From a virus: a DNA stretch of 20,931 nt. Of the stretch, positions 18,155-20,931 are shown piece after piece. Below the pieces are notes generated by a model. The model did no database searches and was not told the origin of the DNA. It worked only from the letters and a program-made list of their open reading frames with translations. Where the stretch lies: positions 1 to 20,931 of IMG/VR virus record IMGVR_UViG_3300037963_004273. One strand, written 5' to 3'. The position numbers and the translations under genes are program-made. Each line of letters starts with the position of its first letter. Positions within the stretch are counted from its first letter, which is position 1.

Positions 18155-18371
18155 AAAGTTTTTAAGTACGCTTATAGGGTTGTTATTAATACCAGTAGTT
18201 ATATCAATATTTTTTATTGATAGAGTTATACTGGTATTTTTACCTCATGTTAAAAGCAGCACAATAGGAGAAGTTTTTACAGATTTAAAAATGTTGGCTC
18301 ACTCTTTATATAGAGTTGGATTAGTGTTTTTTATTTATTGTATATATTTACTAATTACAAAAGTTATTTAA
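18141..18371 (+). CDS. Small membrane protein, two predicted TM segments
   Basis: 76 residues, overlapping the HTH gene by 14 bases and the ParB-domain gene by one (TAATG). A hydrophobic helix at ~8-34 (STLIGLLLIPVVISIFFIDR then VILVFL) and another at ~58-76 (GLVFFIYCIYLLITKVI) flank a polar loop. No family is recognised. The coding sequence contains a long interrupted inverted repeat at 18188-18238. It precedes the 7-deazaguanine gene cluster, but nothing ties it to DNA modification directly. Confidence 0.5.
   Translation: MTKIKKFLSTLIGLLLIPVVISIFFIDRVILVFLPHVKSSTIGEVFTDLKMLAHSLYRVGLVFFIYCIYLLITKVI
18188..18238 (+). repeat. Large nested inverted repeat/hairpin followed by T-tract
   Basis: Outer arms AATACCAGTA (18188-18197) and TACTGGTATT (18229-18238) are perfectly complementary. 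Inside, TATCAATA (18202-18209) and TATTGATA (18215-18222) also pair perfectly around a 5-base T loop, giving 18 bp in two stems. A run of Ts follows. It lies within the membrane protein gene, upstream of the ParB/dpdA/que operon, and could be an attenuator or an operator. Confidence 0.55.
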
Positions 18372-18904
18372 TGAAAAAAATAGATATAAATAAAATAAAA
18401 GAAAACAGTGAAAACCCTCGTTACATAACAGAGGAAAAATTTGAAAAACTTGTAGAAAGTTTAAAAGAATTTCCAGAAATGTTAGAAGTTAGAGAATTAG
18501 TAGTTGATGAAAACTTTGTTGTATTGGGTGGAAATATGCGATTAAAAGCACTTAAAGCTGTTGGGGTTAAGGAAGTACCATATAAACAAGTAAAGAACTG
18601 GACAGAGCAGCAAAAACGTGAATTTATTATTAAAGATAATATTGGTTTTGGTCAATGGGATTGGGATATACTTGGTAACGAATGGGATAATGAAGAATTA
18701 AATAAGTGGGGTTTACAAACCTATGATATAAAAAATGATATAGAGTTAGATGATTTTTTTGAGGAAAACACCCCACAAGAAAAAATTAATACAAATGTTA
18801 TAACACTGGAATATAATGATGATGATTATAAAGTTATTAATGATATTTTAAGTGGTTTAAATGGCTCTAAAGAGGAAATAATATATAATTTATTAACTAA
18901 ATGA
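18371..18904 (+). CDS. ParB-like (ParB/Sulfiredoxin fold) domain protein
   Basis: 177 residues from the ATG at 18371, chosen because it follows the upstream stop as TAATG and gives the family N-terminus (MKKIDINKIKENSENPRYIT). NPR at 15-17, FPEMLEVRELVVDENF and VVLGGNMRLKALKAVGVKEV (51-70) match the ParB N-terminal domain, with GGNMR as the nucleotide-binding box II. The family includes ParB CTPases and phage proteins, often adjacent to or fused with DNA methyltransferases, but no methyltransferase domain is present here. The C-terminal ~55 residues end in a helical segment (DDYKVINDILSGLNGSKEEI). It is ATGA-coupled to dpdA, suggesting a link to DNA modification or targeting; this is inference. 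Confidence 0.7.
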   Translation: MKKIDINKIKENSENPRYITEEKFEKLVESLKEFPEMLEVRELVVDENFVVLGGNMRLKALKAVGVKEVPYKQVKNWTEQQKREFIIKDNIGFGQWDWDILGNEWDNEELNKWGLQTYDIKNDIELDDFFEENTPQEKINTNVITLEYNDDDYKVINDILSGLNGSKEEIIYNLLTK

Positions 18905-19635
18905 AAGTTTTTTTAGCTGGAAGTGGATGGGAGAAAAGATTATGGATGAAAGATAACTTTTATAAGTTTTATCGCTTACATACTTTTTATCATATTGCTG
19001 AACATGAAGCAAAAGTTATTAATAAATACGATGATTTTTTGCTTGATAGTGGTGCATTTTCTTTTTTTGGTGGAAAGGTTGTAAACTGGGATGAATATTT
19101 AACTGATTATATAAATTTTATTAATAAATATGATGTTAAACTGTTTTTTGAGTTAGATTTATATAGGTTAATAGGTATAAAAGAAACAGAAAAATTAAGA
19201 GCAAGATTAGAAAAAGAAACAAATAAACAAAGTATTCCAGTATTTCATAAAATGTTAGGAATAGATTATTATAAAATGTTATGTAAAAATTATAATTATA
19301 TTGCTATCGGTGCTTCTGGTATGTATGACACTGATTGGACAAGAAAAGACCCTAAAAAACTTTTAAAAATGCTTTTATTCGCAAAAAAACTTAATACTAA
19401 AGTTCATGGATTAGGATATACAAAAATTCCAATGCTTGATAAAATGCCTTTTTACAGTGTTGATTCAACAAGTTGGTTAGCTGGAAGTAGATTTGGAGTA
19501 TTACATTTTTTTAATGGTAGAGATTTAAGAAAAGTAAAAAAACCTTTAGGAACAAGGTTAAAAACATTTAAAACAGCAGAATCTAATTTCTATGAGTGGG
19601 TTAAATTTACAAGTTACGCAAAAGATAATTTATGA
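18901..19635 (+). CDS. dpdA: DpdA-like DNA-guanine transglycosylase (TGT superfamily)
   Basis: 244 residues, short relative to bacterial DpdA (about 400) but in the range of compact phage forms. TGT-family features: FLLDSGAFSFFGG with Asp49-Ser50-Gly51 (the D-S-G-F box that holds the base-binding aspartate), FFELD (82-86), SIPVFHKMLG (111-120), HGLG (169-172), then FYSVDSTSWLAGS with Asp188 as the likely catalytic nucleophile. DpdA enzymes swap guanine in DNA for preQ0 or a derivative. The gene lies in an ATGA-coupled run with the preQ0 genes queC, queD and queE immediately downstream, strongly supporting DNA, not tRNA, modification. No zinc-binding Cys cluster of tRNA TGT is visible. Confidence 0.78.
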   Translation: MKVFLAGSGWEKRLWMKDNFYKFYRLHTFYHIAEHEAKVINKYDDFLLDSGAFSFFGGKVVNWDEYLTDYINFINKYDVKLFFELDLYRLIGIKETEKLRARLEKETNKQSIPVFHKMLGIDYYKMLCKNYNYIAIGASGMYDTDWTRKDPKKLLKMLLFAKKLNTKVHGLGYTKIPMLDKMPFYSVDSTSWLAGSRFGVLHFFNGRDLRKVKKPLGTRLKTFKTAESNFYEWVKFTSYAKDNL

Positions 19636-20309
19636 AAGCAGTAGTGATATTTAGTGGTGGACAAGACTCAACAACTTGTTTAAAATGGGCTATAAATAGA
19701 TATAAAAAGGTTGAGGCAATCACTTTTAATTATGGGCAAAAACATAATATTGAAATAGAGCAAAGTAAAATTATATGTAAAAAATATAATATAAAACAAA
19801 CACTTATAAACATAGATTTTTTAAATACTATTGTAGAAAGTGCTTTAATATCAAATGGGGATATAAACAAAACTAATAAAAAAGAACAGCCAAGCAGTTT
19901 CGTGCCAAATAGAAACCAGTTATTTATCACTTTAGCACATAGTTACGCACAAAAAATTAATTTTAATGTTATTGTTACTGGTGTTTGTCAAACTGATTAT
20001 AATGGTTTTGCTGATTGTAGAGAGAGTTTTATTAAAGCAATAGAGTGGACAACTAATTTAGGAAGTAAAGACAATATAATTATTGAAACTCCATTAATGT
20101 ATTTAACAAAATCAGAAACTTTTTTATTAGCCAAAAAAGAAAATTGTTTAGATGATGTTATAAATTTGTCACATACTTGTTACAATGGTAATAGAGAAAA
20201 ATTAAATGAGTGGGGTTATGGTTGTGATAATTGCCCAGCTTGTAAATTAAGAAAAGAGGGTTATAATAAATTTTTAAAAAATGAGTTACATATCAACAAA
20301 AATATTTGA
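19632..20309 (+). CDS. queC: 7-cyano-7-deazaguanine (preQ0) synthase QueC
   Basis: 225 residues, near the usual family length. It converts 7-carboxy-7-deazaguanine to preQ0 with ATP and ammonia. The PP-loop ATP pyrophosphatase motif SGGQDS is at 8-13, followed by FNYGQKHNIEIEQSK. The mid region has VPNRNQLFITLAHSYAQ and DYNGFADCR (122-130). The C-terminal zinc site consists of Cys183 (HTCY) and Cys198, Cys201 and Cys204 (CDNCPAC). All key residues are present, so it should be active. The start overlaps dpdA as ATGA and the end overlaps queD by 29 bases. Confidence 0.92.
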   Translation: MKAVVIFSGGQDSTTCLKWAINRYKKVEAITFNYGQKHNIEIEQSKIICKKYNIKQTLINIDFLNTIVESALISNGDINKTNKKEQPSSFVPNRNQLFITLAHSYAQKINFNVIVTGVCQTDYNGFADCRESFIKAIEWTTNLGSKDNIIIETPLMYLTKSETFLLAKKENCLDDVINLSHTCYNGNREKLNEWGYGCDNCPACKLRKEGYNKFLKNELHINKNI

Positions 20310-20745
20310 TAATTATTCAGTAGCATTAAGACAACACAAAGCACAGCACTCTCATTGTCAGTTGTTACATGGTTATGCTATTAAATTCAAAGTTTGGTTT
20401 AGTACAGACAAATTAGATGATATGAACTGGGTTGTTGATTTTGGGGGGTTTAAAGATAAACCAGTAGGAAACGGATTAAAAAGTTGGATGAACGATATGT
20501 TTGACCATACGTTATTGATAGAAAAAGATGACCCTTATATAGATATATTTGAACAACTGGGTGTCATGGGTTTAGCAAAAGTTAAAATAATGAATAAAAT
20601 GGGTTGTGAAAATCTTGCAAAGTTAGTATATGATAAATTTAATGATGTATTAAGTAAAACAGATGCTGCAAGGTGTAAAGTGATAAAAGTAGAATGTTTT
20701 GAAAACGATAAAAATTCAGCAATATATGAAAATAGAGGATATTAA
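20281..20745 (+). CDS. queD: 6-carboxytetrahydropterin synthase QueD, phage-type variant
   Basis: 154 residues. The enzyme makes 6-carboxy-5,6,7,8-tetrahydropterin from dihydroneopterin triphosphate. The call rests on the active-site-like blocks HCQLLHGYAIKF (25-36) with Cys26, WVVDFGGFK (50-58), MFDHTLLIEKDDP (73-85) with Asp75 and His76, and VECFEN (137-142). In classical QueD two of three zinc histidines lie in an HGH motif and one lies in an AAH motif; here the motif reads HGY and the AAH position is altered, so metal binding is rearranged. This HGY form seems to occur in other phage QueD-like proteins. The gene overlaps both neighbours. Confidence 0.8.
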   Translation: MSYISTKIFDNYSVALRQHKAQHSHCQLLHGYAIKFKVWFSTDKLDDMNWVVDFGGFKDKPVGNGLKSWMNDMFDHTLLIEKDDPYIDIFEQLGVMGLAKVKIMNKMGCENLAKLVYDKFNDVLSKTDAARCKVIKVECFENDKNSAIYENRGY

Positions 20746-20931
20746 GTTAAATGTTAGTGAAATTTTTTACTCTTTACAAGGCGAGGGAGCAAGAATAGGA
20801 ACTCCAACTATATTTATTAGACTTCAAGGGTGTAAAACTAAACACGCTTGTTTTAAAATGGGTATTAAATGTGATACAGAGTTTGAAAGTGGTAAAGAAA
20901 TGTCTATATTAGATATATTAAAATGGTGTAA
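20726..20931 (+). CDS. queE: 7-carboxy-7-deazaguanine synthase QueE-like radical SAM protein (3' truncated by window edge)
   Basis: The ATG at 20726 overlaps queD by 20 bases and the frame stays open to the end of the window (about 68 codons visible). The start NVSEIFYSLQGEGARIGTPT, then IFIRLQGC, is typical of QueE, which turns carboxytetrahydropterin into 7-carboxy-7-deazaguanine. Radical SAM enzymes of this family normally have CX3CX2C, or CX14CX2C, for the 4Fe-4S cluster; here three cysteines are spaced CX5CX6C (Cys37, Cys43, Cys50) just before the usual D-T. The rest of the protein is outside the window. A functional, divergent QueE is more likely than a broken one, since the surrounding motif is well kept. 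Confidence 0.82.
   Translation, partial: MKIEDIKLNVSEIFYSLQGEGARIGTPTIFIRLQGCKTKHACFKMGIKCDTEFESGKEMSILDILKWC

Follow-up and report, generated by a model that had tools for sequence, protein, structure and literature searches.

A ParB-domain gene coupled to a compact DpdA-like transglycosylase in a preQ0 operon of a probable Bacteroidota phage

What does a phage do with genes for making preQ0 (7-cyano-7-deazaguanine) when they overlap in series with genes for a DpdA-like transglycosylase and a ParB-domain protein, and which base would result? The question is raised by positions 18371-20931 of a stretch of viral DNA (the window, 20,931 bases) that forms the first part of the 35,946-base IMG/VR record IMGVR_UViG_3300037963_004273. 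We consider it very probable that preQ0 made by the phage is swapped into its own DNA by DpdA with the ParB protein as a partner, giving dPreQ0 (2'-deoxy-7-cyano-7-deazaguanosine). The system is already known in kind and the window operon is a further example of it; its least expected point is the fixed pairing of the ParB and DpdA genes.

Operon layout and the preQ0 synthesis genes

Five consecutive overlapping genes make up the locus within the window, and their coordinates as well as the overlaps between them (4, 4, 29 and 20 bases from ParB to QueE) agree with the original prediction. All five lie on the plus strand. The first encodes a ParB_N-domain protein of 177 residues (18371-18904, ATG start; PF02195, 3.7e-6), which we propose as a DpdA accessory subunit, and is followed by the gene for a putative DpdA-type DNA-guanine transglycosylase of 244 residues (18901-19635). 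Then come genes for the preQ0 synthase QueC (225 residues, 19632-20309), for the 6-carboxytetrahydropterin synthase-like QueD (154 residues, 20281-20745; PF01242, 2.1e-16; phrog_2389, 1.3e-35) and for QueE (phrog_2076, 3.9e-13), which runs from an ATG at 20726 to 20931, where the window ends at a scaffold gap of 10 N that interrupts the gene, and resumes past the gap to record position 21348. Reading past 20931, as had been recommended, gave the rest of QueE, then folE and then the small and large terminase subunit genes. The expected folE thus lies just beyond the window, at record positions 21350-22000, and with it the preQ0 synthesis set is complete. Neither the family scores nor the gene order conserved among relatives could plausibly arise by chance, and by these matches the phage encodes a full predicted pathway from guanosine triphosphate (GTP) to preQ0 (FolE, QueD, QueE, QueC) together with a transglycosylase. 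The earlier proposal that the phage makes preQ0 is supported by the presence of all four synthesis genes in one operon. Scans for promoters and terminators told us little in DNA so rich in A and T, with 44 promoter-like sites where 36.8 would be expected.

Individually, the synthesis proteins carry the features of their families. QueC matches TIGR00364 above its cut-off (2.4e-71), has the PP-loop SGGQDS and a four-cysteine cluster, and stands alone without a fused amidotransferase domain, a feature shared with the dPreQ0-group phages. FolE matches NF006824 (2.5e-98) and its residues C109, H111/H112 and C180 are invariant. QueD, with the motif HSHCxxLHGYA, is of the variety common to phages Iggy, HD01 and BcepGomr and is 42% identical to that of Iggy. 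Both halves of QueE match QueE models, the C-terminal part best (5.3e-25). As a side observation, the radical-SAM cysteine motif of QueE is C-x5-C-x6-C in the window and in the related locus L008 and C-x3-C-x6-C in L004 and L006, and the QueE of L003 has a longer insert in this motif. FolE in L003 (10517-11365) and L004 (2041-2898) has an extra N-terminal region resembling phosphoribosyltransferases, with a weak PF00156 match in L004.

The first 154 bases of the window recur as the final 154 of the record with one mismatch (99.4% identity), although no end repeat is registered. From this overlap the record probably represents a complete genome, of about 35.8 kb. Its major capsid protein is 50% identical to those of the Flavobacterium phages snusmum and hattifnatt, from which the host, predicted at the outset to belong to the Bacteroidota, is likely a member of that phylum and probably Flavobacterium-like. 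The terminase is 44% identical to that of a gut phage carrying the same operon.

A compact DpdA

Profile searches and structure prediction, both suggested with the original prediction, were run on the 244-residue protein, and neither a grouping with tRNA-guanine transglycosylases (TGTs) nor a non-TGT fold was seen. The protein matches phrog_887 (annotated queuine tRNA-ribosyltransferase) at 2e-44 and, by tblastn, the DpdA of phage Iggy at 6e-9. An AlphaFold2 model of high confidence (pLDDT 93.3, pTM 0.90) forms the TGT barrel, aligning with TGT over 235 residues (Z 14.6, root-mean-square deviation 3.6) and with the bacterial DpdA structure 7ui4, titled DNA preQ0 insertase, over 238 residues (Z 14.1, deviation 3.7, 15% identity). 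No consistent Pfam family was found for the protein, and PF01702 did not match it. The description of the protein as DpdA-like therefore stands on its TGT fold and its phage DpdA matches, with no PF01702 match. PDB sequence matches to a sorting nexin and to the Homer EVH1 domain were dismissed as chance.

Residues D49-S50-G51-A52-F53, H116, H169, D188-S189 and W192 are invariant among the DpdA proteins of the window and of phages Iggy, Sonali and Hedgerow, and D49, D188 and H169 are invariant in those of HD01 and BcepGomr also. By motif, D49 and D188 would be equivalent to D102 and D280 of TGT, and H169 to H196 of the phage 9g protein. We take D188 to be the nucleophile and D49 the general acid/base, assignments made by motif from TGT. 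Only one cysteine is present in the 244 residues, and DpdA therefore lacks the TGT zinc site (CxCxxC..H). In a tree of DpdA relatives, with no tRNA TGTs included, the window protein falls in a supported clade (98/93) apart from the DpdA proteins of the Queuovirinae. It is 24% identical to the DpdA of Sonali.

These features bear on whether the genes instead raise queuosine in host tRNA and leave the phage DNA alone. QueC, QueD, QueE and FolE are common to the tRNA pathway, and such a role has been proposed for que-carrying phages that have no DpdA (PMC6884629). Here, however, there is a transglycosylase, and it has no PF01702 match and no TGT zinc site and clusters with phage DpdA; nor did a profile search of the record find a tRNA-type TGT (PF01702). 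We regard a role in host tRNA as very improbable.

Many relatives differ from the window protein in length. Their DpdA extensions, N-terminal and in Hedgerow also C-terminal, are built from repeats of the protein's own first strand (AMKIFLAG...), of which 34 extensions contain 31 copies where shuffled sequences would give 0.14. Carriers are L049, L053, L062, L083, L085, L086, L094, L101 and Hedgerow gp2 (L143:789-1925). Most of the repeats have an in-frame methionine, and the window DpdA has a single copy. Two Bacteroidota genomes (L101 and L106) have two tandem DpdA genes behind one ParB gene.

The ParB gene upstream of DpdA

A scan of IMG/VR with the DpdA alignment yielded 405 relatives, the best 80 of which were fetched, and a further 50 were taken from bacterial genomes, where many apparently belong to prophages. 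Counting as duplicates only genes with identical C-terminal ends, we compared 100 distinct DpdA genes of the clade that had adequate upstream sequence and that are not fully independent of one another. A ParB gene lies directly upstream of DpdA in 96 of them, and the two genes meet in a 4-base NTGA overlap in 81 of the 96 pairs and in TAATG in five. The four exceptions are L033, where the order is ParB, QueC, DpdA; L094, on a short contig; and the second of the tandem DpdA copies in L101 and L106. Loci were chosen by DpdA only, and adjacency was not built into the sample; ParB calls were made with a profile built from the same loci, and Pfam ParB_N independently matches 44 of 45 ParB homologues. 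No ParB-DpdA gene fusion was found when one was sought, and a long DpdA open reading frame in L094 was considered as such a fusion and rejected.

The pairing holds in two metabolic settings. ParB adjoins DpdA in 68 loci with de novo preQ0 genes and in the 20 loci that have no de novo que genes and carry a PF02592 transporter instead. Since ParB immediately precedes DpdA in 96 of 100 relatives whether preQ0 is apparently made or imported, its genomic context assigns the ParB gene to the modification system.

ParB-domain genes are common near phage terminases, and in this record the genes for both terminase subunits directly follow the operon. The ParB gene could on these grounds be a packaging or replication gene, placed by chance between early genes and terminase and standing outside the modification system. 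In a mirror-tree comparison the Spearman correlation of ParB with DpdA (0.51) was not the highest of the operon pairs (ParB with FolE, 0.74), so that ParB and DpdA are not singled out; and the Queuovirinae, which have DpdA, have no ParB. The pair nevertheless keeps together where its surroundings change: in L004-L006 and L024 the que genes, elsewhere placed after the pair, come before it (QueD-QueE-FolE-ParB-DpdA) and ParB stays upstream of DpdA, and in L007 and in phage phiFN37 ParB and DpdA are followed by DUF6884 and a transporter gene with the terminase far off. Adjacency in 96 of 100 relatives and the 4-base overlap in 81 also argue against chance placement, as do the closest family matches of the protein, which include ParB domains fused to DNA methyltransferases. 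Taken together, these data make an independent packaging gene unlikely.

How might ParB serve DpdA? The model of the window protein aligns with ParB CTPase domains over 89 residues (Z 12.4, root-mean-square deviation 1.6). The phage cytosine modifier CmoX likewise has ParB_N proteins as companions (PMC12783734), and in a 2019 paper on mycobacteriophage CRB2 a ParB gene beside DpdA was suggested as a dpdB homologue (PMC6392294). One report describes bacterial DpdB as a ParB-like ATPase that DpdA uses to insert preQ0 (PMC12839542), and another describes a DndB domain in DpdB (PMC11888242). No DndB model was among the 25 families listed for 45 ParB homologues, and in a PADLOC scan of the ParB proteins most of the models matched were ParB-type methyltransferases, with DpdB not among them. 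As no family is listed as DpdB, the phage protein was set against DpdB by description and not by sequence. On this comparison phage ParB is a plausible counterpart of the DpdB ATPase, in the same broad superfamily and not of the DndB type, and it may work like DpdB without being DpdB. More tentatively, and with slightly less than even confidence, we suggest that the ParB_N protein serves a large clade of compact phage DpdA proteins as their dedicated DNA clamp or loader, gated by nucleotide; this would be a second way of doing what the DndB-type DpdB does in bacteria, and part of a wider rule by which ParB domains serve DNA-modifying enzymes of phages (methyltransferases, CmoX and DpdA).

Several points weigh against the reading of this operon as a DNA-modification system in which ParB and DpdA act together. 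When PDB sequences were searched with the protein and with its profile, neither a DpdA nor a TGT was found, and with no PDB or Pfam sequence match the family assignment therefore rests on PHROGs, tblastn and the fold. Identity to known DpdA proteins is low, about 23% to Iggy and 16% to Hedgerow. The nucleotide motifs of ParB are only partly kept in the profile alignment: QPR is NPR, GERR is G-N-M-R, and ENLQR is represented by DN without the final R. DpdA of the Queuovirinae phages Iggy, 9g and HD01 has no adjacent ParB, and ParB is therefore not needed by every DpdA. Finally, queE is interrupted by the assembly gap, as it might be in an operon that has decayed and no longer functions. But the gap is a 10-N scaffold placeholder whose flanks align at 69 and 77% identity with the intact QueE of L008, by which about three codons are hidden, and the remaining genes are all open and keep their expected motifs. 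We consider decay extremely improbable.

The predicted base and its distribution

In the mechanism we propose, FolE, QueD, QueE and QueC of the phage would convert GTP to preQ0, and the compact DpdA, working as TGTs do, would put preQ0 in the place of guanine in phage DNA. The aspartate assigned by motif as the nucleophile, D188, would displace guanine with D49 as general acid/base, and dPreQ0 would result. ParB would act with DpdA on the DNA, most likely as a DNA-binding, nucleotide-dependent partner, as DpdB does for bacterial DpdA. Guanine would in part be replaced by dPreQ0, and the phage DNA would be protected from some restriction enzymes and possibly from other DNA-sensing defences.

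The closest match in gene order is Mycobacterium phage Hedgerow, where gp1 (ParB-like), gp2 (DpdA), gp3 (QueC), gp4 (QueD), gp5 (QueE), gp6 (FolE) and gp7 (terminase) reproduce the order seen here and where gp1/gp2 and gp2/gp3 also overlap by 4 bases. Hedgerow gp1 is annotated as a transcriptional regulator; our ParB profile matches it at 24.7 bits, and Pfam ParB_N does not. Its DpdA, of 379 residues, has extra C-terminal repeats in contrast to the 244-residue protein of the window, and its host belongs to the Actinomycetota, as does that of Rosebush. The genome described here is AT-rich. Hedgerow, of the species Rosebushvirus rosebush, was read for gene order, and the base was measured in Rosebush, of the same species, in whose DNA dPreQ0 stands at 96,530 per million nucleotides, equal to about 28% of G, with traces of dADG (2'-deoxy-7-amido-7-deazaguanosine; PMC6884629). 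Because this species, with its measured dPreQ0, has every gene of the operon in the same order, dPreQ0 is our best prediction for the final base here. Phage CAjan loses the modified base when dpdA is deleted (PMC6884629).

Gene content points the same way. Like the dPreQ0 group, the phage has DpdA with FolE, QueD, QueE and an unfused QueC and no QueF above cut-off; of the features of the dG+ (2'-deoxyarchaeosine) group, typified by 9g, neither a Gat-QueC fusion nor QueF-L above cut-off is present. Tailoring genes, like folE, had been left to be sought outside the window, and unlike folE none of those searched for appeared: the sole QueF match in the record is the FolE gene itself (16.5 bits, below cut-off), and a profile search of the record gave no PF03883 match. 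No amidotransferase is fused to QueC; ArcS and stand-alone amidotransferases were not specifically searched for in the record. The DNA could still carry dADG, dPreQ1 (2'-deoxy-7-aminomethyl-7-deazaguanosine) or another derivative, if a host enzyme or the product of a phage gene that escaped recognition converts dPreQ0 further. Salmonella phage 7-11 (PMC6884629) and Pantoea phage MED16 (PMC8306585) have dADG without recognised tailoring genes, and many genes of the present phage have no assigned function. With QueC standing alone, no QueF above cut-off and no PF03883 match in the record, and with Rosebush giving dPreQ0 and only traces of dADG from the same gene set, we judge a different final base to be quite improbable.

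Other systems share parts of this arrangement. Arthrobacter phage Sonali has the order ParB-DpdA-QueC-QueD-QueE-FolE with a 4-base ParB-DpdA overlap, but its operon is away from the terminase. The Queuovirinae (9g, CAjan, Iggy) have FolE, QueD, QueE, QueC and a homologous DpdA, but the DpdA is larger and stands without a neighbouring ParB; in Iggy the 7-deazaguanine genes adjoin DNA polymerase genes, and 9g has Gat-QueC and makes dG+. The Dpd system of Salmonella Montevideo (DpdA-DpdB-DpdC) likewise combines a TGT-fold DpdA (7ui4) with a partner of the ParB superfamily, DpdB, whose DndB domain is unmatched by phage ParB, and DpdC and the restriction genes dpdD-K of bacterial Dpd systems were not seen in the phage.

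Que genes were reported earlier in marine Bacteroidetes viruses (PMC7198788). The present operon would extend dPreQ0, a measured phage modification, to a probable Flavobacterium-like lineage and, through the DpdA relatives, to several hundred uncultured viruses. In phages and prophages from Bacteroidota, Bacillota, Fusobacteria and other groups, members of this DpdA clade are accompanied by a ParB gene. This makes it testable whether phage DpdA needs ParB as bacterial DpdA needs DpdB and whether ParB sets the extent and the sites of guanine replacement. ParB-DpdA is also the gene pair to clone for laboratory dPreQ0 labelling of DNA.

Two further observations concern neighbouring genes. In six loci (L007, L011 of Fusobacterium phage phiFN37, L058, L089, L052 and L117) ParB and DpdA are followed by a DUF6884 gene, and four of the six have the PF02592 transporter. 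DUF6884, a family to which bacterial DpdC belongs, matches PF03883 at 3e-5, and these loci are predicted to be miniature modification sets making dADG. Downstream of the terminase, at record positions 24885-25748 (L002:6885-7748), lies a PAPS-reductase-like gene (phrog_424), rare among the relatives, that weakly matches SspD, a protein of phosphorothioation.

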